A stretch of 33,156 nt of DNA, from positions 1-33,156 of the forward strand of contig JADGRL010000033.1 of assembly GCA_017880865.1 (NCBI GenBank). Reading direction: 5' to 3'. Below the pieces are notes generated by a model. It searched no databases, had not been told where the DNA came from, and saw nothing but the letters and a program-made list of their open reading frames with translations. This document shows positions 9,613 through 22,357 of this stretch, in pieces. The stretch comes from Gallionella sp. (GTDB taxonomy: Bacteria; Pseudomonadota; Gammaproteobacteria; Burkholderiales; Gallionellaceae). Position 1 is the first letter of the stretch. Every line of letters begins with the position of its first letter. A program made the translations under genes and the position numbers.

Positions 9613-9671
9613 CCAATCATAGCGGTAAGTAATTGACTGCCAACCTTTTGCATGTTCCATCCCATGTTATT

Positions 9672-9690
9672 TTGTATGGTTGACATATAA
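9672..9690 (+). promoter_or_regulatory. Candidate HigA operator
   Basis: The arms ttgtatg and catataa are separated by gttga and match at 6 of 7 positions as an inverted repeat. The site covers the -35 hexamer of the higBA promoter, as expected for an autorepressor operator. Binding by HigA is inferred from position and symmetry only. Confidence 0.5.
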
Positions 9691-9708
9691 CGCGCTGCGT
9701 AATATTCT
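9680..9708 (+). promoter_or_regulatory. higBA promoter
   Basis: A consensus TTGACA (9680-9685), 17-bp spacer and TATTCT (9703-9708) make a strong sigma-70 promoter. The predicted start of transcription, about 9715, coincides with the higB ATG at 9716, so the toxin message would be leaderless or nearly so. Confidence 0.7.
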
Positions 9709-9715
9709 GCGCGTA

Positions 9716-9994
9716 ATGATCAAGTCGTTTACATGCAAGGATACCCAGGCGTTGTTTGAAGGAAACTATCCGCGACGCTTCCGTGCGATTCATGCAGCGG
9801 CCGAGCGAAAACTGACGCAACTGGACGCCGCAGCCACGCTGGATTTTCTTCGCGCGCCACCGGGCAACCGGCTGGAAGCATTGCGGGGAGATCGCAAGGG
9901 GCAATGGAGCATCAGGGTGAACGACCAATGGCGGATTTGTTTCAAGTTTAATAATGGTGACGTATTCGATGTCTCGATAGTCGATTACCACTGA
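9716..9994 (+). CDS. higB: HigB-type toxin (RelE/ParE superfamily mRNA interferase)
   Basis: The 92-residue product has the HigB pattern: MIKSFTCKDTQALFEG at the start, a helical segment RFRAIHAAAERKLTQLDAA, and the strand region LRGDRKGQWSIRVNDQWRICFKF carrying the basic residues used for ribosome-dependent mRNA cleavage in this family. The open frame begins at a TTG at 9680, but that codon lies inside the -35 element. The ATG at 9716 gives the family N-terminus. higA follows 10 bp later in the toxin-first order typical of hig loci. Confidence 0.9.
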   Translation: MIKSFTCKDTQALFEGNYPRRFRAIHAAAERKLTQLDAAATLDFLRAPPGNRLEALRGDRKGQWSIRVNDQWRICFKFNNGDVFDVSIVDYH

Positions 9995-10004
9995 GGAGAT
10001 CAAC

Positions 10005-10304
10005 ATGGTGAAGAATGGAATGCGCCCGGTACATCCGGGAGAAATTTTGCGCGAGGAATACATCGTGCCTATGGGCATGAGTGTCCATGCGCTGTCGCAG
10101 GCATTGCGCGTGCCCGCCACGCGGCTGCACGAGATCGTCAAGGAGCGCCGTTCGATCACGCCCGATACCGCATTGCGGCTGGCGCGCTACTTCGGCACGG
10201 ATGCGCAGTCCTGGCTGAACCTGCAACTGAGCTACGATTTGAAAATCGCGGAAGCGGAACTGAAAGACAGGATCGAGCGCGAAGTCGAGCAGATGGCGGC
10301 GTAG
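10005..10304 (+). CDS. higA: HigA-type antitoxin, XRE-family regulator
   Basis: The 99-residue product carries the HigA signature RPVHPGEILREEYIVPMGMS. A helix-turn-helix follows (residues about 25-65: VHALSQALRVPATRLHEIVK and TPDTALRLARYFGT). The C-terminal helix ends in REVEQMAA. It should neutralise HigB and repress the shared promoter through the palindrome at 9672-9690. A GAGGAG ribosome binding site (9993-9998) overlaps the end of higB. Start choice is secure, though M6 (MRPVHPGE) is also possible. Confidence 0.92.
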   Translation: MVKNGMRPVHPGEILREEYIVPMGMSVHALSQALRVPATRLHEIVKERRSITPDTALRLARYFGTDAQSWLNLQLSYDLKIAEAELKDRIEREVEQMAA

Positions 10305-10507
10305 TGCGGCCACAAAGATCAATTCGCTCTGCCCCGTGTGCTCTTCTTTAACAAAAGCACGCCTTGCCCGTGTCCCATTACTTCCGTATGATTTCCCCAC
10401 GTGCGAAACGCATATTTAACAGAAGCGTAGACGCGAGTTTCCGCACTAGCGGGCGCGACCAATCAGCAAGTTTGTATACGTGAACATCGCGTAGCGATAC
10501 TTTGTCC

Positions 10508-10531
10508 CCCTCACCCGCTTGCGGGAGAGGG
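10508..10531. repeat. REP-like palindrome
   Basis: The arms ccctcacccgc and gcgggagaggg flank a TT loop and pair at 10 of 11 positions. GC-rich palindromes of this form are common dispersed intergenic repeats in beta- and gammaproteobacteria. This is the only copy recognised in the window. Confidence 0.7.
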
Positions 10532-10600
10532 CCGGGGAGCGGGAACGGACAAGGTGCCAGCGACGTTCATCATCAGGTATGTCTGACACCATGTCTGTTA

Positions 10601-10650
10601 AGGGGAATAATATAACTGCAAGCTTCTCTGCTTTTTCTTTGTGCCGCTCC
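10601..10650 (+). repeat. Left copy of 50-bp direct repeat
   Basis: This segment aligns without gaps to 12541-12590, matching at 42 of 50 bases; the core ctgctttttcttt is identical. The two copies bracket the lipoprotein gene. The right copy lies in the leader of the ORF6N gene. Confidence 0.75.
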
Positions 10651-10809
10651 AGCAAGCTGTCGTCTCTCACTATGCTGTTCGTCGTCCGTTGGAATCGCGC
10701 TGGTGATTTTTAGAGAAACGGCATGCGAATGACTGCCGATGACAAAAGGAATTGGGAATCGGTATATTTGTTTGCAACAAAATTTAAACTGAGAAAGGGA
10801 GTTTTTCGC

Positions 10810-12426
10810 ATGAATAAGATTTTTATTTTTCTTAAAGGGGCTTGGGACTTACTGATTGTTGGCTCGATAGTGGGTACATTGCTTGCCGGATGCGGTGGTG
10901 GGGGCGGCGGTAGTGTTACAAGTAATACCACGGGAAATCTACCTTCAACTGGCGCTATACCGCCAGTCACGAACGGATTTGATGTGTGGGACTACAATTA
11001 CACGCCAAGTGCTGGCCTGGCCGGAAAGATGTGTGTCAATTTTAGCGCTGGCAACACTGCCGGGCAGATCGGCAATAGCACGTTATTCATTAACGGGTAT
11101 ATGGAAGCCAGTGACCTGAGCGGCACAGTTGATGCAGCCGGCAAAGTCGCCATGGCTTCGACCACTTTCGCCACGCAATTTAGTGCGAATGTCGATGCCG
11201 CTGCAACACTGATGTCAGGCCTGTTTACCGGCACCAGCCCGATAGGTGCGGGTAACTTTTCAGGTAAGCACGTAATGGGAAAGTATTCGTGCTTCTGGGA
11301 ACCATTCGCAACCGGGGCTGCACTCGATATTGTCATCACCAATAAAACCTCGGCACCTGCGATAGCCATGGACGGAGCTAATCCTGTCGTCGCATTTGTC
11401 GAAGAAGTTTTGGGTACGCCGGTGAATGGCAGCACGCCCTTCGAGGATAAGGTCTATGTCAAGCGCTGGAATGGCACGCAGTGGGTGCAATTGGGTGGTG
11501 CGTTAAACAACGTCGGGCGCAATGACCTTGCCAACCAGCCCATTGTGGCGGTGGCAAATGGTAATCCGGTAGTGACATGGACCGAGCGCAACAAGACTAC
11601 GCTGGTATATGAAGCTTATGCAAAACGCTGGGACAACATTACTTCGACCTGGGTTTCACTGGGTGGCTTGTTAAACAATCCGGTAACTCAGGACACGTAC
11701 GCCAAAGGTGTGGTGATCGATATCAATAACAACCCGGTTATCTTGCTGACATACAAAACCACTATTGGCACATTGATACAATTTGATAGTCGTGCGATGC
11801 AGTGGAGTGCCATTGCCAGCACATGGTCACAGCTAGGTACCAATTTGCTGAATACCTGGGTGTATCACGTCGCGAAAGACCCCGCCGGCGTACCCGTGTT
11901 GGTCGCTCAGTTCGGCCTTAGCGTTGGCGCAGAAAAATGGAACTCGGTGACCGGCTCGTGGGTTCCAATTGGCGGCAGTATTCCAACATCGTTGGGCACG
12001 GTCATGTCGGCAGAGATCGCGTACACTGGCAGTGGGGTGCCGGTCATGGTTTATGAAACCAATACAGGATTTAGCAGCCATGTCGACGCAAACGCCATGG
12101 TCAACGGCATCTGGGCGCAGCTCATTCCTGGTGTGCCTTTCGATCCGGTCTCAAACAAGCAATCGCCGCATATCGCTATCGATCCCACGGATGGTCTTCC
12201 TGTGGTCGCTGCGTCAAGCAACAGTATGGGAGGCATCGTCATTCAGAAGGCATATGCGAATCGCTGGAAACCGATGGGCAGTAATTTCGATAGCTACACT
12301 TTGTTCAGCTCACAATCGCCGGTCGTTGCATTTGACAGCGTTGGCAAGCTGTATGCGGCATCTTCGCAGCAGCCTACTTCGAGCGACAGCAATATCGTAT
12401 TGAGTACCTGGCCAAGCCAGAAATAA
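10810..12426 (+). CDS. Putative propeller-like outer-surface lipoprotein
   Basis: The 538-residue product has a lipoprotein signal (hydrophobic segment followed by LLAGC, lipidated Cys at residue 28) and then a poly-Gly/Ser tether. From about residue 180 on, blocks recur with a W..W..LGG.LNN theme: VKRWNGTQWVQLGGALNN, AKRWDNITSTWVSLGGLLNN, MQWSAIASTWSQLGTNLLN, EKWNSVTGSWVPIGG. Each is followed by P(V/I)V strands, suggesting a beta-propeller-like domain. I chose the ATG at 10810 because it begins the signal peptide and has AAAGGGA upstream; the open frame starts 29 codons earlier. Specific function unknown. It is flanked by a 50-bp direct repeat. Confidence 0.75.
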   Translation: MNKIFIFLKGAWDLLIVGSIVGTLLAGCGGGGGGSVTSNTTGNLPSTGAIPPVTNGFDVWDYNYTPSAGLAGKMCVNFSAGNTAGQIGNSTLFINGYMEASDLSGTVDAAGKVAMASTTFATQFSANVDAAATLMSGLFTGTSPIGAGNFSGKHVMGKYSCFWEPFATGAALDIVITNKTSAPAIAMDGANPVVAFVEEVLGTPVNGSTPFEDKVYVKRWNGTQWVQLGGALNNVGRNDLANQPIVAVANGNPVVTWTERNKTTLVYEAYAKRWDNITSTWVSLGGLLNNPVTQDTYAKGVVIDINNNPVILLTYKTTIGTLIQFDSRAMQWSAIASTWSQLGTNLLNTWVYHVAKDPAGVPVLVAQFGLSVGAEKWNSVTGSWVPIGGSIPTSLGTVMSAEIAYTGSGVPVMVYETNTGFSSHVDANAMVNGIWAQLIPGVPFDPVSNKQSPHIAIDPTDGLPVVAASSNSMGGIVIQKAYANRWKPMGSNFDSYTLFSSQSPVVAFDSVGKLYAASSQQPTSSDSNIVLSTWPSQK

Positions 12427-12540
12427 CGCAGCACGGGGCCATGCCTTGTATTGAAATAGATAAATAGCGTTTGAATAAAAGGGGCCGGGGTCGATATATT
12501 TTTGATGCGGAAAATAATTCGAACCTGCCCCTTTAATTTA

Positions 12541-12590
12541 AGGGAAATAACGTGACTGCAAGACTCTCTGCTTTTTCTTTGCGCCGATCC
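12541..12590 (+). repeat. Right copy of 50-bp direct repeat
   Basis: This copy matches 10601-10650 at 42 of 50 bases and ends 32 bp before the ORF6N start. Weaker similarity continues past it towards the ORF6N start (gttgccgcttgaatcg here, gtccgttggaatcg there). Confidence 0.75.
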
Positions 12591-12622
12591 GGCCAACCGC
12601 AGTCAGTTCCCGTCTACTCTGA

Positions 12623-13210
12623 ATGAGTACGCCTCCTCTGTTGCCGCTTGAATCGATTACACACCACATCCTGTTGCTGCGCGGGCAAAAGGTTTTGCTG
12701 GATGCCGATTTGGCGGTGCTCTATGACGTGCCAACCAAGCGTTTCAATGAACAGGTCAGACGTAATCTGGAACGCTTCCCGGCAGATTTCATGTTCCATT
12801 TGACCGAGGAAGAATGGGCGGCTTTAAGGTCGCAAGTTGCGACCTTAAAGACCGGGCGCGGCCAACATCGCAAATATCTGCCTTATGCCTTTACCGAACA
12901 TGGTGCCATCATGGCAGCAACGATCTTGAATAGCCCGAGGGCGACCGAGGTATCGGTCTATGTGGTACGCGCCTTTGTGCGTCTGCGCGAGGTGCTGGCA
13001 TCCAATGCGGAATTGGCAAAGCGCCTGGATGATCTGGAGCAAGCAACCGAAGCGCTGGCCTTGCAACACGATTCCTTTGCGCGCAACACGCGCGTCCAGC
13101 TCAAGCAGGTGTTCGATGCCATCCGGGAATTGATGACTCCGCCCGAGCCGCAATCGAGGCGGCCTATCGGGTTCATCAGCGGCGAGGAGCAGCCGAAGAA
13201 AGTTGGCTGA
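12623..13210 (+). CDS. ORF6N-domain protein (phage-type putative DNA-binding protein)
   Basis: The 195-residue product has the ORF6N/KilA-N-like N-terminal domain. It shows LRGQKVLLDADLAVLYDVPT, the NEQVRRNLERFPADFMFHLT block, a region around SQVATLKTGRGQHRKYLPYA, and FTEHGAIMAATILNSPRA. A coiled segment (RLDDLEQATEALALQHDSF) and a polar tail follow. Such proteins occur in prophages and accessory islands, often next to defence genes; the biochemical role is uncertain. The ATG at 12623 gives the usual N-terminus. The gene is convergent with the XRE regulator. Confidence 0.85.
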   Translation: MSTPPLLPLESITHHILLLRGQKVLLDADLAVLYDVPTKRFNEQVRRNLERFPADFMFHLTEEEWAALRSQVATLKTGRGQHRKYLPYAFTEHGAIMAATILNSPRATEVSVYVVRAFVRLREVLASNAELAKRLDDLEQATEALALQHDSFARNTRVQLKQVFDAIRELMTPPEPQSRRPIGFISGEEQPKKVG

Positions 13211-13284
13211 TCTGCCCAAGCTTTCGCTTGTCCCTAGTCGGTGTTACAAAGCAAGATCAGACCCCACGATTTTCAAGACGGGGT

Positions 13285-13653
13285 TTACTTCACGCTTTGT
13301 GTGCGGTTCAGGAGTTTGACAAACTCGACGGCGAGGTGTTTGTTTTCGGGGGTGAGCGCGCGAAAATGGCGGCGCAATTGAATGGCTTCGGTGGTGTAAT
13401 CGGCTTTATCGCTTCCCAATAAGTCGCGATTCCTTTTGGATACTTTTTCCACCCCTTCAGCGTGAGCATGTAGCGCGGCAACTGTCGTGTGAAGAGCCGC
13501 AGCAATCATTTTCAGTGATGCCGCTGCGGGCTGTTGAACTCCCCGCTCAATGCGTGACAAATTGCTGGGATCGGTACCGATCTCATGCGCCATTTGTTCT
13601 AGCGTTTGTCTTTTTTCCAGCCGTAAAGCGCGGATAACTTGTCCTATTTCCAT
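13285..13653 (-). CDS. XRE-family regulator, candidate controller of the type III R-M locus
   Basis: The 122-residue product has a clear N-terminal helix-turn-helix (residues about 5-60: IGQVIRALRLEKRQTLEQMA, HEIGTDPSNLSRIERGVQQP). A short C-terminal part is of unknown role. I chose the ATG at 13653 because it begins the HTH directly; the open frame continues 48 codons upstream across the operator region and would reach into mod. The gene is divergent from mod, with several palindromes between them. That arrangement resembles controller (C) proteins of restriction-modification systems, although those are better known from type II. Function as controller is inferred. Confidence 0.8.
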   Translation of the reverse strand: MEIGQVIRALRLEKRQTLEQMAHEIGTDPSNLSRIERGVQQPAAASLKMIAAALHTTVAALHAHAEGVEKVSKRNRDLLGSDKADYTTEAIQLRRHFRALTPENKHLAVEFVKLLNRTQSVK

Positions 13654-13674
13654 GTGCCAATTGTCGAAACCTAT

Positions 13675-13744
13675 GGCGTTTTGCGCAAAGCGCTTTGGCG
13701 CATGTTTAGAATAATTGGCGTTTGGCGCCAATTGAAAGGATAAT
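13675..13744. promoter_or_regulatory. Operator array and divergent promoters between the XRE gene and mod
   Basis: The region contains ggcgttttgcgc (13675-13686) and ggcgtttggcgc (13717-13728), spaced 42 bp or four helical turns. It also contains the palindromes ttgcgcaa (13681-13688) and aaagcgcttt (13687-13696), and an 8-bp inverted repeat aattggcg/cgccaatt (13713-13733). For mod, TTGGCG (13715-13720) and GATAAT (13739-13744) with an 18-bp spacer form a weak promoter whose -35 lies inside the palindrome. On the minus strand TATTCT (13713-13708) could be the -10 of the regulator gene. Confidence 0.65.
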
Positions 13745-13774
13745 CTTGTGCCATAAGCAAACTCAAGATAAGCC

Positions 13775-15286
13775 ATGCCGTTTCTCGATTGGGTCAATAA
13801 AAATCAGGCGCAGGAAGCCTCGCGCGAAGTTCCTTACCACTTGCTCAAGCAGGAAGCCGTGTATGGCGACAGCGCGGAAAACTTGCTGATACAGGGCGAC
13901 AACCTGCTGGCGCTCAAGGCGCTTATTCCGTTTTATGCCGGACGGGTCAAATGCATTTTCATCGACCCACCATACAACACACAAAGCGCCTTCACGCATT
14001 ACGACGACAAGCTGGAGCACAGCCAGTGGCTATCCATGATGTACCCACGCTTGGTGTTACTACGTGAATTGCTGGCGGAAGACGGCAGCATCTGGGTGAC
14101 GATAGACGACAACGAAGCGCACTATCTCAAGGTGTTGATGGATGAAGTGTTTGGGCGGAAAAACTTTATCGCAAACATGGTGTGGCAGAAACGAACATCG
14201 AGGGAAAACAGGGCTGCTGTTGGCTCAGCGCATGATCATATTCTTGTTTATGCCAAGGTGACAGCTGTAAATTGGAAGGAATTTAGGAACACACTTCCAG
14301 CAAGAGAAACTGGATTCAAAAATCCTGATAACGATCCGAGTGGTGAATGGCGCGCTATACCATTTACAGCGCAGGGATACAGAAAAAATCAAATGTATGA
14401 GATCGATACACCAAGTGGAAAAGTTGTGACCCCTCCAAGGGGGCGATGCTGGGGAGCTACAGAGCAATCTTTGAATCAGCTAATAAGTGAAGGTAGGGTT
14501 TACTTTGGAAAAAGTGGAGACGCTCAACCGACCATAAAAAAATATAAGGGTGAAGAGTCCGGTTTAGTACCGATGACTTGGTGGACGGCTGAGGAGTTTG
14601 GCGACAATACTGCTGCCAAGAGGGAAATTTTGGAGTTGTTTGAAAATGATGACACTCCATTCGGTACCCCGAAGCCAGAAAATTTAATTGAGCGAATTCT
14701 TCACATTGCCAGCAATTCCGGCGATGTCATCCTCGACAGCTTCCTTGGTTCAGCCACGACCGCAGCTGTTGCCCACAAGACGGGTCGCCGATATATCGGT
14801 ATCGAGATGGGTGACCATGCCCGCACACATTGCATTCCGCGTCTGCAAAAAGTTATCGAAGGCGAGCAAGGCGGCATCAGCCAAGCAGTTAACTGGCAGG
14901 GCGGCGGGGGATTCCGTTTTTGCACGCTGGGCGAGGCGGCGTTCGATGAGCATGGGCGCATCAATGTGGCGGTAAAGTTTGCAACCTTGGCGGCTTATGT
15001 CTGGCATTTTGAGACAGGCGAACCCAGCCAACAAACATTCGATCAACCGTTACTCGGCATTCACAACGGTACGGCTTACTACCTGCTTTACAACGGCATC
15101 CTCGGCGACCGCCGTCCTGCTTCGGGCAATGTGTTGACGCACGCGGTATTGCAGGCGATCAACGACATCTTTCCGCACGCCGGGCGCAAAGTGATCTACG
15201 GCGAAACCACGCGCTTAGGCGCGGCACGGCTGGCGGCGGAGAACATCACTTTCAAGCAAATTCCTTACGACGTGAAAATGCGATAA
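13775..15286 (+). CDS. mod: Type III restriction-modification DNA methyltransferase (Mod, adenine-N6)
   Basis: The 503-residue product is a beta-class N6-adenine methyltransferase. The catalytic DPPYNT motif is at residues 64-69 and precedes the AdoMet-binding motif DSFLGSATT (321-329), the order that defines this class. MPFLDWVNKN at the start and the C-terminal KVIYGETTRLGAARLAAENI are typical of Mod proteins that pair with Res. The central target-recognition region (about residues 135-305, bases 14180-14690) is markedly AT-richer than its flanks. Frame and motifs are intact, so methylation activity is plausible. The stop is 4 bp before res. Confidence 0.92.
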   Translation: MPFLDWVNKNQAQEASREVPYHLLKQEAVYGDSAENLLIQGDNLLALKALIPFYAGRVKCIFIDPPYNTQSAFTHYDDKLEHSQWLSMMYPRLVLLRELLAEDGSIWVTIDDNEAHYLKVLMDEVFGRKNFIANMVWQKRTSRENRAAVGSAHDHILVYAKVTAVNWKEFRNTLPARETGFKNPDNDPSGEWRAIPFTAQGYRKNQMYEIDTPSGKVVTPPRGRCWGATEQSLNQLISEGRVYFGKSGDAQPTIKKYKGEESGLVPMTWWTAEEFGDNTAAKREILELFENDDTPFGTPKPENLIERILHIASNSGDVILDSFLGSATTAAVAHKTGRRYIGIEMGDHARTHCIPRLQKVIEGEQGGISQAVNWQGGGGFRFCTLGEAAFDEHGRINVAVKFATLAAYVWHFETGEPSQQTFDQPLLGIHNGTAYYLLYNGILGDRRPASGNVLTHAVLQAINDIFPHAGRKVIYGETTRLGAARLAAENITFKQIPYDVKMR

Positions 15287-15290
15287 CGCC

Positions 15291-16088
15291 ATGTTAGAAC
15301 TCAAGCAGTATCAAAAAAATGCGCTGTCTGTGCTGACGCAATTTCTGCAAGCCTGCCGCAGTGTGCCGGTAGCCGATGCGTTCCATGCAATGCTGGCAAC
15401 ACAGAATAGAACTAACGAGCGTTATCACACGGTATTTGATGAAGTGCCGTGTGTTTGCCTGCGTATCCCTACGGGCGGCGGCAAGACATTGCTGGCGGCG
15501 CATGGCGTGGCGCTGGCAGGTAAGGCTGTGTTGGATTCCGATGCGCCGCTTGCCTTATGGCTGACTCCGAGCGATACGATTCGTTCGCAGACGCTGGAGG
15601 CATTGAGCAATGCGCGGCATCCTTACCGTCAGGCGCTGGCGCAGTACTTCGGCGACCGCGTGCAGGTGTGCGATTTGGAAAGCCTGCAAACTATCAGCCC
15701 GCATGATGTGGGCAAGGCGTGCATCGTGGTGGTGGCGACCATCCAGTCGTTCAATGTGTCGGATACCGCCAAGCGCAATGTGTATTCGTTCTTTGAGGAA
15801 CTCGCGCCGCACTTCGATAACCTGCCCGCGAACATCAGCGCCGGGCTGGAAAAAGTGACGGAAGCCGATTTGCAAAATCAGCCTTACCTGACCGCCAAGG
15901 ATATTGGGCGCACCAAGTATTCCGTGGCGAACTGGCTGCACTTGCATCATCCGGTGGTGATCGTGGATGAGGCACACAACAATCGCACTGACCGCTTCTT
16001 CAAGACGTTGGGCAGGTTGAATCCAAGTTGCGTGGTGGAACTGACGGCCACTCCTGTAGCGGGTAATAACGTGCTGTATCACGTTTAG
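15291..16088 (+). CDS. Res N-terminal fragment (first helicase domain, ends at amber codon)
   Basis: This 265-residue open part ends right after motif III (ELTATPVAGNNVLYHV). It holds the ATP-binding and DEAH motifs but lacks the second RecA-like domain and the nuclease, so it should not translocate or cut by itself. See the full-length pseudogene entry. Confidence 0.75.
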   Translation: MLELKQYQKNALSVLTQFLQACRSVPVADAFHAMLATQNRTNERYHTVFDEVPCVCLRIPTGGGKTLLAAHGVALAGKAVLDSDAPLALWLTPSDTIRSQTLEALSNARHPYRQALAQYFGDRVQVCDLESLQTISPHDVGKACIVVVATIQSFNVSDTAKRNVYSFFEELAPHFDNLPANISAGLEKVTEADLQNQPYLTAKDIGRTKYSVANWLHLHHPVVIVDEAHNNRTDRFFKTLGRLNPSCVVELTATPVAGNNVLYHV

Positions 16089-16097
16089 GCGCAGGAG

Positions 16098-17972
16098 TTG
16101 AAGACCGAGCAGATGATAAAGCTGCCCATCGTGCTGGCGGAACATCCTGAAGGCTGGCGCGAGTGTTTGCGTGATGCGATTTTGCGGCGCGACAGCTTGG
16201 AATTGGTGGCGCAGAAAGAACCGGAATATATACGCCCTATCGTGTTGGTGCAGGCCGCGCCTAAGGGCAACGAAGCAACGGTGGATGTCGTGCGCAAGCA
16301 TTTGTTGGAGCAGGAAAATATCCCAGAAAACCAAATTGCAGTCGCCACGGGCGAACAGAAAGAGCTGAACGGCATCAACCTGTTTGATCCCGCCTGCCCG
16401 ATTCGCTATGTGATTACGGTCGAGGCATTGAAAGAGGGATGGGATTGTTCATTCGCCTATGTACTGGCGTCGTTGCAATCAGTCAATTCAGCCAAGGATG
16501 TCGAGCAACTGCTGGGGCGCGTGTTGCGTATGCCTTACGCGAAAACGCGACAACAAGATGCGCTGAACAAAGCCTACGCGCACATCGTCGCGGAAAATTT
16601 TGCGCAGGCCGCGTCCAGTCTGAAAGACCGCATGGTGCAGAACATGGGCTTTGAGCGGTTCGAGGCCAACCTGGCAATCGTTCCAGAACAAAGTAAATTA
16701 CCTTTGCCGGAGGGCGATAAATCAACTTTACCCGCCATACCTGATTGCCATATCGAGGTGCCGCAAGCGCCAGATATCCAGCATTGGCCGGATGAAATCA
16801 AGGCTGCCGTGCAGATTATGCCCACGACACAGGGCGCAACGATTCTGCTCAAAGGCGATGTGGATGCCGATACGCTGGCGCAGGCAGAAACTTTCATCAG
16901 CCATGCGCTGCCGGAAAAAGCACGGGGTGCGGTCAAGGAACAGTTTGATGCACATCGCGCCATGCGTCGTGCGTTGCGCGCACCCGCGCAACTCGGGCTG
17001 ACTTTCGCGCCGATCCCGCAACTCTGCTTGAAGCTGGATGGTTATCTGGAGGTGGTCGAAAAAGAAACGCTGTCCAATTCGGGTGATTGGGATTTGTTGG
17101 ATCTGTCAGTGCAACTCGCAGGGTTCTCAATTACCGAGACCGTCAACTCGTTCGAGATAGATGTGAACGGGGAGAAAATAAAATATCGCCACTTGGATGC
17201 GCAGCAACTCAAGCTGAACGATGTGGTCAGCCATGTTAGTGAACAGGATTTGGTGCGCTGGCTGGACAGAGAGGTGCGCAAGCCGTACCTGTCGCAAACG
17301 CAGTTGCAGGCGTATCTGGTCAAGATGATTACGCACCTGATGCATGAGCGTGGCTTTAGCCTGACGGCGCTGGTGCGCGCACGGTTTCAACTGGCACAGG
17401 CTATTGCCCGCGAGGTGGAACGTTTGCGCCAGATTGCGATGGACAAAGGGTTTCAGGGGCGTCTGTTTGAAATGACCGTACCATCACTGGATCAGACAGG
17501 ACATTACAACTTCCAGTTTGAGGCAGGGATGTATCCCGCACGCCAGATTTATCAAGGCAGCTACGAATTCAGCAAACATTTTTATCCGGTCATTCACGAC
17601 TTGCGCGAGAAGACCCCAGCCGGGCAAGTTGCAGAAGAGTTCGTGTGCGCGCAAGCATTGGATGCACACCCCATGGTCAAGCAATGGGTGCGAAACATCG
17701 AGCGTCAGGAAAAATTCTCGTTCTGGTTGCCGACCTCAACGGATTATTTCTATCCCGATTTTGTAGCAGAGTTGGATGACGGGCGAGTGCTGGCCGTGGA
17801 ATACAAAGGTGAGCCATATAAAACTAACGATGATTCGCGCGAGAAAAATCAGGTGGGACATCAATGGGAAAAATCCAGTGGTGGGCGTTGCCTGTTCTTG
17901 ATGGCGGTTGCCAAGGACGAGCAAGGGCGGGATGTGCGTCAGCAGATAGCGGTAAAAATAACTTCTCGCTAA
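16098..17972 (+). CDS. Res C-terminal fragment (second helicase domain and nuclease)
   Basis: This 624-residue open part begins at a TTG four codons after the amber codon, or 5 codons later at the ATG at 16113, where AGGAG (16093-16097) lies 15 bp upstream. It carries LKEGWDCSFAYVLASLQSVN, LLGRVLRMPY and the PD-ExK residues D554, E568 and K570. Reinitiation is possible but unproven; trans-complementation with the N-terminal fragment would be needed for ATPase activity. Confidence 0.7.
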   Translation: MKTEQMIKLPIVLAEHPEGWRECLRDAILRRDSLELVAQKEPEYIRPIVLVQAAPKGNEATVDVVRKHLLEQENIPENQIAVATGEQKELNGINLFDPACPIRYVITVEALKEGWDCSFAYVLASLQSVNSAKDVEQLLGRVLRMPYAKTRQQDALNKAYAHIVAENFAQAASSLKDRMVQNMGFERFEANLAIVPEQSKLPLPEGDKSTLPAIPDCHIEVPQAPDIQHWPDEIKAAVQIMPTTQGATILLKGDVDADTLAQAETFISHALPEKARGAVKEQFDAHRAMRRALRAPAQLGLTFAPIPQLCLKLDGYLEVVEKETLSNSGDWDLLDLSVQLAGFSITETVNSFEIDVNGEKIKYRHLDAQQLKLNDVVSHVSEQDLVRWLDREVRKPYLSQTQLQAYLVKMITHLMHERGFSLTALVRARFQLAQAIAREVERLRQIAMDKGFQGRLFEMTVPSLDQTGHYNFQFEAGMYPARQIYQGSYEFSKHFYPVIHDLREKTPAGQVAEEFVCAQALDAHPMVKQWVRNIERQEKFSFWLPTSTDYFYPDFVAELDDGRVLAVEYKGEPYKTNDDSREKNQVGHQWEKSSGGRCLFLMAVAKDEQGRDVRQQIAVKITSR

Positions 17973-18377
17973 AACATGGAATCAGCTTCGTGTTGGTTAG
18001 CATGCGAAACTTCCATGCGGTGAGGCTGGTGCATTGGCTCTGGTAACTCATTCCCCTGTGCGCCGCCTCGCTAGTCCGCAAGCGGGCGGAGACTAACCTT
18101 CAGGTTATGTCGTAACCACACGTTTTCATGTGATGTGCCCGTTGCCGCACATTCATCTTCTAAGGAAGCGCTGAATAAGTCCGTTCGTGGTGAGTATTTC
18201 CCGTTCGCTCCTTCGATACACCGCACAACGCGCGGCACTGATGAAGCTACTAGCCATTCCACTAGCTTGCCAAAATACGGCAACCAAGTGGTTGGTTATC
18301 AGGACGAACGGAAAATGTATCGAACCATAGTTGGGATTTATTCAGTGCTTCCTTAAACCAAGTGCACCTCGGCTTAC
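17973..18377. other. Gene-free spacer holding a MITE-like element
   Basis: No gene was recognised. The part before the element has only a weak 7-bp inverted repeat (17975-17981 with 18011-18017). The rest is the 195-bp inverted-repeat element described separately. Confidence 0.6.
18161..18355. mobile_element. MITE-like non-autonomous element, 195 bp
   Basis: Terminal inverted repeats of 22 bp (18161-18182 and 18334-18355) pair at 20 of 22 positions; the left end begins taaggaagcgctgaataag. The ends carry TA, which would fit a TA target duplication but cannot be separated from the repeat itself. Internally CCGTTCGT (18181-18188) is matched by ACGAACGG (18304-18311), and TTCGATACA (18212-18220) by TGTATCGAA (18316-18324). 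No transposase is encoded, so movement would need one in trans. Confidence 0.75.
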
Positions 18378-18686
18378 TCAAGGCGTCTGTGATCCAGACT
18401 TGTTGGTTGCCGCTTGCGCAAGCAGCTTTTTCCCTTGCTCCGTGAATTTCCACCAGGGGATAGCTTCGCCGCTGTGCAGATAATGTTGCGCGGCCAGAAA
18501 AGTATAGAACACGCAGGGGTCGTGGCGACGCCCCATGTGGTCGGACAAGGCAAGGTAAGTTTTTAGCGGATCGCGCGTCGCGAGCTGTTGCGGGGTCAGG
18601 ATGCCGAGCGATCGCAGGTCGGACGCGATGGACTTGCCGATGTTGGGAATATCTTCAAGCTTGCTGGCGCTGTGCGGATTTTGCAT
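18378..18686 (-). CDS. Helix-hairpin-helix protein, Cdd1-like (pathogenicity-locus family)
   Basis: The 102-residue product has an HhH motif near the N-terminus (LEDIPNIGKSIASDLRSLGI, residues about 11-30). A conserved second half follows (LALSDHMGRRHDPCVFYTFL, then PWWKFTEQGKK). This combination is known from small Cdd1/mitomycin-resistance-like proteins of unknown biochemical role; non-specific DNA binding is the usual guess for HhH. AAGGAG lies one base before the ATG at 18692 and seven bases before the ATG at 18686, so I prefer the latter. Confidence 0.8.
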   Translation of the reverse strand: MQNPHSASKLEDIPNIGKSIASDLRSLGILTPQQLATRDPLKTYLALSDHMGRRHDPCVFYTFLAAQHYLHSGEAIPWWKFTEQGKKLLAQAATNKSGSQTP

Positions 18687-18800
18687 GATCATGCTCCTTT
18701 ATAAAGCCGGGTGCGGACGCGGTGCGCGCTCCCCGCTACTTTGATTTTGGTTATAGCCGCCGGGCAGCGCCAAGACCGTCCGCAAGGGCGAGTGTCTGAT

Positions 18801-18856
18801 AAAACAATTAGCCATTCCGCTAAGCCGTCAAAAGACATCGGCAAGTGGCTGGTTAT
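18801..18856. repeat. Diverged copy of sequence found inside the MITE-like element
   Basis: The stretch with tagccattccgcta and aagtggctggttat aligns with tagccattccacta and aagtggttggttat at 18251-18289 inside the MITE-like element, in the same orientation. Preceding ctgat...aa bases also match. The terminal repeats are absent here. Confidence 0.6.
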
Positions 18857-18979
18857 GGCGGCGTACCCTTTACGGGTGCTGCCACCGGCTACAAGAACGC
18901 TGAGTACGCGCATGCTATATTGTTATAGCTAAATTTACATTCCCTACAATATTTCCATTCCTGATTCGTCTTCACTGGT

Positions 18980-19555
18980 ATGGATACGACACTCACCCCC
19001 AACGCGCTGATGGCTGAACAAAACCAACGTATCTCCGAAACAGTCTCGCGCGAGCGCGGGCGGCTGATGAATTTCATCCGGCGGCGCGTGCCCGATCCGG
19101 GCGAGGCGGAGGACATTCTGCAGGACGTGTTCTACGAGTTCGTGGCCGCGTACCGCCTGCCGGAATCCATCGAACAGGTCGGTGCATGGCTGTTCGGTGT
19201 GGCGCGCAACCGGATCATCGACCGCTTTCGCAAGAAGAAAGAACAGCCTCTGCCCGAGGAGTCGGGCGAGGATGACGGGGGCAGCTGGCTGGATGAAGTG
19301 TTGCCCTCGAAGGAGGCCGGGCCGGAAGCGGCTTATGCCAGAGGTGTGTTGCTCGAAGAGTTGGCTGCCGCGCTGGCCGAGTTGCCCGAGGAGCAGCGCG
19401 CCGTATTTATCGCCCACGAACTGGAGGGGCGCAGCTTCAAGGAACTGGCGGAGGAGGCCGGGGTGGCTGTGAATACCTTGCTGGCGCGCAAGCGCTATGC
19501 GGTGCTGCACTTGCGCTCACGTCTGCAAACAATTTACGACGAATTTAATTTTTAA
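18980..19555 (+). CDS. ECF-type RNA polymerase sigma factor
   Basis: The 191-residue product has sigma region 2 (RLMNFIRRRVPDPGEAEDIL, QDVFYEFVAAYRLPE, and AWLFGVARNRIIDRFRKKK, residues about 29-88). An acidic linker (EESGEDDGGSWLDE) separates it from sigma region 4 (LAELPEEQRAVFIAHELEGR and SFKELAEEAGVAVNTLLARK, about 132-180). It lacks regions 1 and 3, so it is an ECF sigma. A membrane protein gene follows 12 bp later, and no classic anti-sigma gene is adjacent. A weak promoter TTGTTA/TACAAT with a long 19-bp spacer (18920-18950) may drive it. Confidence 0.92.
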   Translation: MDTTLTPNALMAEQNQRISETVSRERGRLMNFIRRRVPDPGEAEDILQDVFYEFVAAYRLPESIEQVGAWLFGVARNRIIDRFRKKKEQPLPEESGEDDGGSWLDEVLPSKEAGPEAAYARGVLLEELAAALAELPEEQRAVFIAHELEGRSFKELAEEAGVAVNTLLARKRYAVLHLRSRLQTIYDEFNF

Positions 19556-19567
19556 AGGAGAACTGAG

Positions 19568-19924
19568 ATGGGTATGAACTGCAAAACGAAATGCTGGACC
19601 AAATGTTGGACCATGGTGCCGCTGGTGATGGTCGGCATCGCTGGTCTGGGCTGGGTGGTGATGATGTTGTGGAACTGGTTGTTGCCGAACTTGTTCGTGG
19701 GCGTCAAAGCGATCGACTATGTTCAGGCGATGGGCGTGCTGCTGTTGAGCAAGATATTGTTCGGCGGATTTAGAGGACACTGCGGCGGTCATGCCAAGTG
19801 GCAGCAACATCGCCTGGAAAACATGACGCCGGAACAACGCGAAAAATTCCAGACCGGAATGCGCAGCGGGTTCTACAAGTGCAAGGGTGACGAGGCTTGT
19901 GCGCCGAAAGAGAAGCAGGACTGA
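19568..19924 (+). CDS. Small Cys-rich two-helix membrane protein paired with the ECF sigma factor
   Basis: The 118-residue product has a Cys-rich N-terminus (C5, C9, C13). Two hydrophobic segments follow (about 16-37, including GLGWVVMMLWNWLLPNLF, and about 47-65, VQAMGVLLLSKILFGGF). Next are an HCGGH motif and a charged tail (ENMTPEQREKFQTGM) with two further cysteines. A strong AAAGGAG site precedes it, 12 bp after the sigma gene, so the two are almost surely co-transcribed. It could be a membrane-bound anti-sigma/sensor or a metal/redox-linked target. Similar WNWLMP-type proteins exist but I know no assigned function. Confidence 0.8.
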   Translation: MGMNCKTKCWTKCWTMVPLVMVGIAGLGWVVMMLWNWLLPNLFVGVKAIDYVQAMGVLLLSKILFGGFRGHCGGHAKWQQHRLENMTPEQREKFQTGMRSGFYKCKGDEACAPKEKQD

Positions 19925-19962
19925 AGAGCCCCGTTCCACGCCCGATCGCGCGCTTAGAGGTT

Positions 19963-19986
19963 ATCAATGGAGTTTGCGCCATTGAT
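19963..19986 (+). other. Hairpin downstream of the sigma operon
   Basis: Arms atcaatgg and ccattgat (8 bp) enclose an 8-nt loop 39 bp after the stop of the membrane protein gene. It lacks a T-run, so it is more likely a transcript-stabilising or pause hairpin than a terminator. Confidence 0.45.
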
Positions 19987-20015
19987 GCGGCGAAAAAATA
20001 TCAACGGCCGCAAAT

Positions 20016-20051
20016 AAAAATGGCACGTCCTTTTTGACGTGTCATTTTTTT
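20016..20051. terminator. Bidirectional intrinsic terminator
   Basis: A 14-bp stem (20016-20029 with 20036-20049, one G:T wobble) with a cttttt loop is bounded by A-run and T-run on opposite sides. It lies between the convergent sigma operon and the OmpA-like gene and can serve both. Confidence 0.85.
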
Positions 20052-20065
20052 GTATCGCCTTTTGA

Positions 20066-20452
20066 TTAGAACCGAACCTGTACTTCGTAGCGGCGGTTCT
20101 TTGCTTTCTTGGCGGCGGTGTCGCCCGGCTTGACCAGCATATTATCCGAACCCATGCCGATGGCTTCGATGTCGCCGCTATCCACGCCCTGCGCGATGAG
20201 TTCCTTGACCATCACTTGTGCGCGGCGTGCCGACAGTTCCTTGTTTTTGACCGCATCGCCGGAGGAGTCGGTGTGGCCGGAGATGATGAATTTAAATCCG
20301 GTTTGCCCCTGGGCTTGCAGTTTCTTTTTTACGTCGATGATCGTGGTGGCCAGTTTTTTGGACTTGTTGCCGCAACCGGCTACCAGCTCAACCGATCCGC
20401 TTTTGAACGAACACTGGTTTTTTCTTCCTTCATCAAGCAACTTTTTATTCAC
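20066..20452 (-). CDS. OmpA-like peptidoglycan-binding domain protein, probably N-terminally damaged
   Basis: From a GTG at 20452 the 128-residue product carries a complete OmpA C-terminal domain: FIISGHTDSSGD, NKELSARRAQVMVKELIAQG and AKKAKNRRYEVQVRF, including the D and R residues that bind diaminopimelate. The frame stays open upstream to 20674. At about 20602-20565 it encodes KFRLLSATATFAHA, which looks like the end of a signal peptide, yet no ATG, GTG or TTG lies before it in frame. Without it the product would not be exported. A 9-bp hairpin sits just upstream. The DUF4382 gene precedes it on the same strand. Confidence 0.7.
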   Translation of the reverse strand: MNKKLLDEGRKNQCSFKSGSVELVAGCGNKSKKLATTIIDVKKKLQAQGQTGFKFIISGHTDSSGDAVKNKELSARRAQVMVKELIAQGVDSGDIEAIGMGSDNMLVKPGDTAAKKAKNRRYEVQVRF

Positions 20453-20605
20453 CTCAGTCGCGATTTGTTCGTTGCCCTTTGCGGGTGCTTTCTCTTTGGC
20501 TTGATCGGATGCCTTGGCATTGAGGTCGGCGGCTCTCGGGGTTTTTATGTTGTCCAGAAGTCCGGCATGGGCGAAGGTGGCTGTGGCAGAGAGCAGCCTG
20601 AATTT

Positions 20606-20632
20606 GTTATCGGGTGACGCTCGCCCGATAAC
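20606..20632 (-). other. Hairpin between the DUF4382 gene and the OmpA-like gene
   Basis: Perfect 9-bp arms gttatcggg and cccgataac enclose a 9-nt loop, 35 bp after the DUF4382 stop on the minus strand. No T-run follows, so it is not a standard terminator. It sits where the start of the OmpA-like signal peptide would be expected. Confidence 0.6.
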
Positions 20633-20666
20633 GTGACGTTCTCTTTGGATCGGGCGGCGGTTTGAA

Positions 20667-21863
20667 TTATGGTATCAGAGTAAAGTTATGCACGGCATCC
20701 GCCGTTGAAATGTTCGCTGCGAACGTCTGGGTCACGTAGCCGGTCGCGGAAGCTTCATCGGTGTATTGGCCCACGGTGAATGTGCCGTTAGAAAACACCA
20801 GCGGCAGCGTTGCACTGTACTGCGCGAGCCGGGGCGCGCCTATCGGCAAGATCAGTGAGTAGGCGCCGGTTGTGAGATCGGCTGCCTGCGATTTTACCGT
20901 CACGATTGGGAGGGTGCCGACGGCTTGCTGCGCTGCCGCGTAGGTGACGACCGTCGCATCGGTCGGATTCAAGGATATCGAGCCGCCCAAGATGTGGGTG
21001 GCCGATACCGGCATCGTGATCGGCGTGATGTTGTCACTCACGTTCACCACGCTGGTGGTGGTTGCGATCGGCACGCTGGCTATGACTGCCGTGGCATGGC
21101 CGTTTGCGGTGAGAACGACATCATAGTTTCCGGGGGTGACGCGGCCGAGAAAAAACTCACCGGTGGTCGCGTTCGGCACCGTGGTTTGAACGATCACACC
21201 GTTCTGCTGCGCCGTCACCAAGACGCTGCTGGGCAGTAACGCGGGATCGACAAAACCGTCAATGCCGTTCAGCGCAAAGGGGATGACTTTGATCACGGGT
21301 TTGAGCACGTAGTTTCCATTACCGCTCGTCACGATGGATTTGCAGGCGTTGAAATCCAGCACCAGATCGACACGCTGCCCGGAGGCCACGTCGAACGGGT
21401 TGATCAGCTTGATCCCGCTTTGCAGCGCGCTCGGGGTAACCAGCGGGGTCGCAGCGCCACCAGTCGGGACAACCGAGTTGGCGAGTCCACCCACAACGGT
21501 GTTCGGATCCAGCACCAGGCGCAGTTGCGTGTAATGCCCTGCAGCCAACGGTGTCTCGCCAAGATGGTCGAGTACGCCGTTGTTCAGGCTGAGCAAATTT
21601 ATTTTTCGCGCAGGGTTCAGCGTAATATCGGTCCAGCCGGCAGCCGTGTCGGTGGCGGTCGCGCTCTGGTGCACCCGCACTTTGTTGACGGTCACATTCA
21701 CCTCGTCGAAGCCGCAGGCCGGCGTATCTGTGAGGGATATGCCAAATATACCCGGGGCGGTGGCACCGTTGTCATTACCGCATCCGGCTGCAAGTGCAAC
21801 GAATACTGATGCTATCAGCCACGACAGAAGTTTGAATCTGGAATAATTATTGAACTTTTTCAT
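20667..21863 (-). CDS. DUF4382-domain lipoprotein
   Basis: The 398-residue product begins with a lipoprotein signal (WLIASVFVALAAGC, lipidated Cys 28). The DUF4382 domain covers residues about 38-190, with SLTDTPACGFDEVNVTVNKV, RKINLLSLNNG, and HYTQLRLVLDPN. The rest looks like a carboxypeptidase-regulatory-like beta-sandwich (GEFFLGRVTPGNYDVVLTANG). It is probably anchored in the outer membrane or at the cell surface; the family has no assigned function. AAAGGA upstream of the ATG supports the start. Confidence 0.88.
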   Translation of the reverse strand: MKKFNNYSRFKLLSWLIASVFVALAAGCGNDNGATAPGIFGISLTDTPACGFDEVNVTVNKVRVHQSATATDTAAGWTDITLNPARKINLLSLNNGVLDHLGETPLAAGHYTQLRLVLDPNTVVGGLANSVVPTGGAATPLVTPSALQSGIKLINPFDVASGQRVDLVLDFNACKSIVTSGNGNYVLKPVIKVIPFALNGIDGFVDPALLPSSVLVTAQQNGVIVQTTVPNATTGEFFLGRVTPGNYDVVLTANGHATAVIASVPIATTTSVVNVSDNITPITMPVSATHILGGSISLNPTDATVVTYAAAQQAVGTLPIVTVKSQAADLTTGAYSLILPIGAPRLAQYSATLPLVFSNGTFTVGQYTDEASATGYVTQTFAANISTADAVHNFTLIP

Positions 21864-22357
21864 ATTCTTTTCCTTTTCGTTAGCGTGACAGCGACGTGAT
21901 GTTGGCGGGAACTATGGGTTAATAAGATGTTTGTATTTCATCCGCCAGTTATCGCGAACGAAATGACATCGCAAAATGCGCTTTTAAATGGGGTTGATCT
22001 GTGCGCTAGAACACGCAGCGCGATGAGTCGCGATGAGCAGGAATCGGGTAAGCCATAGCTACGGGGCGCTAGGGCTCAAATCAAATGAGTGGGCTAACCT
22101 GCGTTTTTCGACAATCTTGCGTTCTTTGATCGGCGTTTGCTGCGATTTCCTGACGAAGCAATATCTCTGTTTGCAGTGCTTCGCTGTAAGAGCGATGGTG
22201 TAGCCCATGGGGGGTGATGTACACGCGGATGTTGAACCCGGCAAAGGATGATGGTGTGCAGCTCTGCCTAGCATCATCCTTTTGTATTTGCATAACGCTG
22301 TCGGCAGGCGTGGCGACCTGTTAAAATGCGCGAGTTATTCAGTCAACTTAACCTTTC
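21864..22357. other. Gene-free spacer before the MFS gene
   Basis: No gene was recognised. It contains the DUF4382 ribosome binding site near 21873, a short direct repeat (gcgatgagtcgcgatgag, about 22020-22037), the long inverted repeat at 22243-22282 and a TAAAAT that could be a -10 element (22322-22327) for the MFS gene. It also forms the right boundary of the accessory segment. Confidence 0.55.
22243..22282. repeat. 11-bp perfect inverted repeat upstream of the MFS gene
   Basis: Arms aaaggatgatg (22243-22253) and catcatccttt (22272-22282) enclose an 18-bp loop, followed by ttgtatttg. It could form a terminator-like hairpin ending transcription that enters from the accessory segment, or be the remnant of a small palindromic element. 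Confidence 0.65.

Follow-up and report, generated by a model that had tools for sequence, protein, structure and literature searches.

Why is a Type III restriction gene that otherwise reads as one frame interrupted by a single amber codon, while the methyltransferase gene beside it stays open? The question arises in a 33,156-nt stretch of a contig from Gallionella sp. (JADGRL010000033.1; hereafter the window, meaning the whole stretch of DNA analysed), in which mod (13775-15286) and res (15291-17972) follow each other on the + strand with a gap of 4 bases. The probable answer is that this is an ordinary mod-res Type III operon whose res very recently gained a nonsense codon. The features concerned are the following.

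13775..15286, + strand: mod, Type III DNA methyltransferase, 503 aa, open frame (PDLC03644 MTase_III, PF01555, DPPY, FLGSAT)
14190..14700, + strand: central variable region of mod, probable target recognition domain, limits approximate (GC dip, low identity)
15291..16088, + strand: 5′ part of res, first helicase (RecA1) part, 265 aa, ending in TAG (PDLC03650 positions 1-270; PF04851)
16086..16088, + strand: in-frame TAG, res codon 266 (frame translation; homologue column S/A/G)
16089..17972, + strand: 3′ part of res in the same frame, second motor part, spacer and nuclease motif, 627 codons
16113..16115, + strand: in-frame ATG, best candidate internal start, weak ribosome-binding context (sequence; start of the homologue P0035)

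The nearest named relatives at the mod-res locus are Gallionella, Sideroxydans and other Nitrosomonadales/betaproteobacterial environmental MAGs. Just upstream of mod-res, an ORF6N-domain protein (PF10543; PADLOC candidate PDC-S05) is encoded at 12623-13210, and a divergent HTH regulator that weakly resembles R-M control proteins and capH lies upstream of mod at 13285-13653 on the − strand; frames resembling this regulator occupy the same place in five relatives' loci (L002-L006). The interval from uvrA to MFS-ssb (9617-22357) measures ~12.7 kb in the window, compared with 117-243 bp in 5 and 938-1083 bp in 3 of 29 relatives' loci (21 of the 29 are without uvrA inside the fetched flank of up to 1.5 kb), and is probably an insertion hot spot.

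As the first-pass annotation had described, res is continuous save for one codon: it translates as a single frame of 893 codons, closed by a terminal TAA (17970-17972), and its sole internal stop is TAG at codon 266 of 894 counting the end stop (16086-16088). The N-terminal piece covers positions 1-270 of the 898-position Type III Res profile PDLC03650 (E 3.1e-96) and the C-terminal piece, from 16098 on, covers positions 276-894 (E 1.3e-232). Since the two pieces fit adjacent parts of one profile, the frame represents a real gene and not a chance one. Motifs are kept on both sides of the stop, again in agreement with that annotation, with TGGGKT (residue 61), DEAH (226) and TATP (252) before it, and GWD (383), QLLGRVLR (406), YPDF (821) and EYKG (837) after it. 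TATP is taken here as helicase motif III, and the YPDF/EYKG region is presumably the PD-ExK nuclease. The TAG sits 11 codons past TATP, close behind it, so that ‘directly after', as it was first put, is slightly loose. Res stands directly downstream of Mod with both helicase and nuclease motifs, and it is not one uninterrupted polypeptide; the TAG at codon 266 makes this a Type III locus with a broken res rather than a complete system.

A search with the C-terminal part of res yielded 6347 proteins, and the best 120 of them were examined. Among these best 120, 116 align across both pieces with exactly one residue between them, and all 116 carry a sense residue at the stop column (Ser in 56, Ala in 55, Gly in 5), while P0035, P0075, P0085 and P0114 match the C-terminal part only. 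L002-L006 and L033, which are the six nearest loci read (with five distinct sequences, as L033 is identical to L002), have at this position a Ser codon one step from TAG, which bears out the proposal that a single substitution is the likely origin of the stop.

Could the stop instead mark a true gene boundary? No family with a normal boundary at this position was found among the homologues and loci examined, contrary to what would be expected were the stop such a boundary. Compared with the intact homologue P0002, 112 of the best 120 proteins (of 6347) are essentially the whole gene and 8 are without the N-terminus, with starts scattered over residues 148-275. A search with the N-terminal part listed 120 shorter proteins (candidates limited by length), in 71 of which the end can be aligned, leaving at most 10 residues unaligned beyond it; these ends spread from residue 140 to 460 without a peak at 266, the 260-279 bin holding 5 of the 71 and the adjacent bins 7 and 8. 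Of 90 loci with a Res match, 60 were scanned (L002-L046 and L105-L119), the other 30 being lower-ranked, partial or distant matches whose listed rows are without an internal stop. Res is unbroken over >840 residues in 50 of the 60 (45 distinct), partial in 7 and broken in 3, namely the window's own locus (L105) and the pair L032 and L039, counted as one locus since they share a frameshift. One of the partial loci, L030, has 6 kb of upstream sequence yet no 5′ res. Across the order, 28 of 399 genomes hold a Res match at E ≤ 1e-30, and among the listed rows of that search a stop inside Res occurs only in the window's own. With N-fragment ends scattered and the other listed order-wide rows free of an internal stop, a true boundary in homologues was rejected.

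Further irregular copies were encountered. P0001, the nearest homologue among the best 120 of 6347 (95%) and one of the 8 without the N-terminus, sits on one 3.4-kb contig, and of its first 41 residues 33 agree with the window's other reading frame; its res thus appears frameshifted near residue 148, which speaks both for recurrent res loss and for errors in metagenome contigs. Plasmids carry Res relatives too, at E ≤ 1e-50 in 53 of the 72,556 records (30 of the 53 from Acinetobacter), and on plasmid CP033569 the Res match falls into three pieces where no gene is annotated, possibly a further broken copy.

What the two pieces could do depends on where the break falls in the protein. In EcoP15I Res, as set out in PMC4490356, RecA1 spans aa 7-269 and RecA2 aa 366-594 with Pin inserted at 288-365, the spacer and nuclease come after RecA2, and the nucleotide is bound between RecA1 and RecA2. 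No sequence alignment of the stop region to EcoP15I Res (4zcf) was obtained, so the domain limits were transferred using the order of the motifs and the residue numbers. Judged by the order of the motifs, the stop would lie at the end of RecA1, near the RecA1/RecA2 junction, and neither piece would then hold a complete motor. The N-terminal piece is without the later motor motifs and the nuclease, and the C-terminal piece is without TGGGKT and DEAH; with the motifs divided in this way, loss of restriction is the expected outcome.

The same position near a domain junction would suit a Res made of two chains, split at the RecA1/RecA2 junction, with the C-terminal chain made from ATG 16113 and both reassembled on Mod; restriction would then persist, perhaps weakened. 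One homologue fits this arrangement: P0035, a 628-aa stand-alone C-terminal Res (80% identical; 4 member sequences), has as its first residue the Met that corresponds to ATG 16113, just past the window's stop position. Yet the scatter described above, of N-fragment ends all over the gene and of starts in proteins without the N-terminus, is not that of a conserved split, and the nucleotide would sit between the two separated domains. Intact relatives have the same coding residues around ATG 16113, so no new start has evolved there. The reinitiation near 16098-16113 that had been suggested does have candidate starts, but its signals are weak, with AGGAG abutting TTG 16098 without a spacer and lying 15 nt before ATG 16113, a poor spacing. 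A two-chain Res is accordingly regarded as highly improbable.

Nor does a rescue from elsewhere in the genome seem available: no second Mod and no second close Res was found at E ≤ 0.001, and a second copy supplying Res in trans was rejected, as the genome search with the C-terminal part returned only itself at that threshold. PF04851 matches 15 helicase-type places in the genome, which may include distant nucleases.

A codon that is decoded rather than obeyed would leave Res whole. RF1 is present (525 bits vs a cut-off of 423), no CTA anticodon occurs among the 39 tRNA hits, all typed with ARAGORN (an incomplete set, since tRNA-Trp is missing from it), and PylS yielded nothing over its cut-off, with two sub-cut-off matches at 21-22 bits vs 178. 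On these grounds amber suppression, which had been put forward for this codon, and pyrrolysine were rejected. TAG ends ssb and an RF-1-domain gene besides the N-terminal part of res (25 window frames checked), the RNA around the stop has no more stable a fold than its shuffled versions (z −0.17), and the column holds TAG in no relative seen. Programmed recoding is thus contradicted both by the sense residues of the spanning homologues and by the lack of decoding machinery in these searches. Selection downstream of the TAG does resemble that in intact relatives, as read-through would predict; the chance that the codon is read through by a suppressor tRNA, by pyrrolysine or in a programmed way is nevertheless judged negligible. 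The idea of a phase-like switch also finds no support, there being no tandem repeat at the TAG codon and no homopolymer run of 4 or more within 60 nt of it. The exact 21-base context of the stop gave 0 matches in viral contigs.

Selection on res was compared by a three-sequence distance method, in which the more distant pairs have a high or saturated dS. Over the whole gene, dN/dS on the window branch is 0.051 (95% bootstrap 0.028-0.081) with references L002 and L003 and 0.055 (0.033-0.086) with L002 and L004, and 0.041-0.065 on intact branches. In the C-terminal part, the window branch gives 0.062 (0.035-0.103) or 0.068 (0.039-0.112) depending on which reference pair is used, near the top of the range for intact branches (0.050-0.065) and with widely overlapping intervals; in the N-terminal part it gives 0.002 or 0.009, below the intact 0.022-0.079. 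Furthermore, of 657 columns invariant in the nine other sequences (stop column uncounted), 4 are changed in the window, fewer than in six of the nine intact sequences, which show 0-13 such changes. The three with low counts are L007 (2), L008 (0) and L034 (0); because the last two carry copies of one gene, changes of their own are hidden. Selection on the interrupted res therefore matches that on its intact relatives, with no sign of relaxation, which means either that the stop arose very recently or that the organism does not in fact carry it. If free evolution followed the stop, synonymous divergence since release from selection amounts, as a rough bound, to at most ~0.005-0.012 per site. 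Of the two options first offered, recent decay or a functional codon, the recent interruption is upheld and the functional codon finds no recoding support.

The absence of decay beyond the stop is equally expected from a consensus error or a minor assembly variant, and the main rival to a nonsense mutation is accordingly an assembly or consensus error, or a minority strain variant, in an organism whose Res is intact. Such an error would sit easily with a draft genome (84 contigs, 2.85 Mb, completeness 95.5%), with the apparently full constraint on all other parts of res and with intact relatives up to 93% identical to its C-terminal part; the other broken copies (P0001 and L032/L039) are also on metagenome-type contigs, where errors are possible. 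However, an informal look at the contig's Pfam-matched genes noticed no other split frame, the codon lies away from any homopolymer, and such res genes seem to break elsewhere as well, by frameshift in P0001 and L032/L039 and by absence of the 5′ part in L030. On balance, an error or strain variant is considered unlikely, and a real nonsense mutation is preferred.

The state of mod agrees with the earlier statement that the methyltransferase is open. Its frame is uninterrupted over 503 codons, the product matches PDLC03644 (MTase_III) over positions 1-541 of 542 (E 1.4e-188) as well as PF01555, and it carries the catalytic motif DPPY at 64 and the AdoMet motif FLGSAT at 323, so modification probably persists. 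Among 23 Mods of relatives, DPPY is found in 21 and the AdoMet motif pattern in 20, with the Ala form FLGSAT in 3 (L002, L008 and L014). The centre of mod (14190-14700) has a GC content of 0.444 vs 0.519 and 0.564 on its two sides, and Mod residues 141-300 show identities of 0.13-0.47 to six relatives vs 0.76-0.94 outside. Composition and identity together suggest that this is probably a target recognition region exchanged between relatives, and mod can thus not be treated as one history. Two relatives have unusual mod arrangements: in a Nitrosomonadales MAG whose Res is a 91-98% relative (L004:3495-5049), the mod frame breaks at an A9 run where the variable region begins, which would be either a homopolymer error or a phase-variable tract, and res is intact; and in a gammaproteobacterial MAG (L023:2007-5198), two tandem mod genes, 60-61% identical to the window's Mod, precede one res.

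Among known systems, the locus resembles the EcoP15I type (Mod2Res1) in its adjacent mod and res, its Mod DPPY, its SF2 helicase motifs and its C-terminal nuclease motif, and the window's Mod matches the EcoP15I Mod chain 4zcf_A (4.7e-36). It differs in that res is interrupted and in that its Res subfamily is far in sequence: 4zcf_C was reached at just E 0.38 with a profile, and a PDB search with the single Res sequence gave no match. A literature search on premature stops in type III restriction-modification res subunits gave no match, which is not proof of absence. Inactivating res mutations beside mod are described in PMC2667262 and PMC3311624 for H. influenzae, Neisseria and H. pylori. By analogy with these cases, a restriction-minus, modification-plus locus would, on the best reading, be of a known kind: in H. 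influenzae modA, Neisseria modA11/modA12 and H. pylori modH, mod is kept and res inactivated (PMC2667262, PMC3311624).

This precedent, along with the open mod, could favour a Mod kept as a dedicated epigenetic regulator, res having been lost under selection as in phasevarions. Unlike modA, modA11/modA12 and modH, the window's mod has no obvious phase-variable repeat (the only tandem repeat found in it is a 21-base unit of 1.9 copies, and its longest homopolymer is A7 at 14536), so that no tract obviously switching mod was found; the window's nearest named relatives, moreover, are environmental MAGs. The loss is also too young to show that mod is kept for itself, and a kept regulator is very doubtful here.

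Under the preferred nonsense mutation, translation would halt at 16086 and the remainder of Res would not be usefully made; the 265-aa product, the first motor part alone, would be unable to hydrolyse ATP or to cut. Mod would still form and methylate its site, and the cell would become restriction-minus and modification-plus, a viable state in that self-DNA stays marked. On the accepted logic of R-M systems, a cell that lost Mod before Res would have its own DNA left open to cutting, so a nuclease lost first would fit the expected order. The locus would most likely be a transient null allele heading toward loss of the system. It looks like an ordinary loss of function or an assembly error, not a new mechanism. 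If the stop is real, the locus shows the opening step in the loss of a Type III system, with the nuclease gone and the methylase and constraint signature still whole, and adds a modest data point on the turnover of defence systems in Gallionella-like betaproteobacteria.
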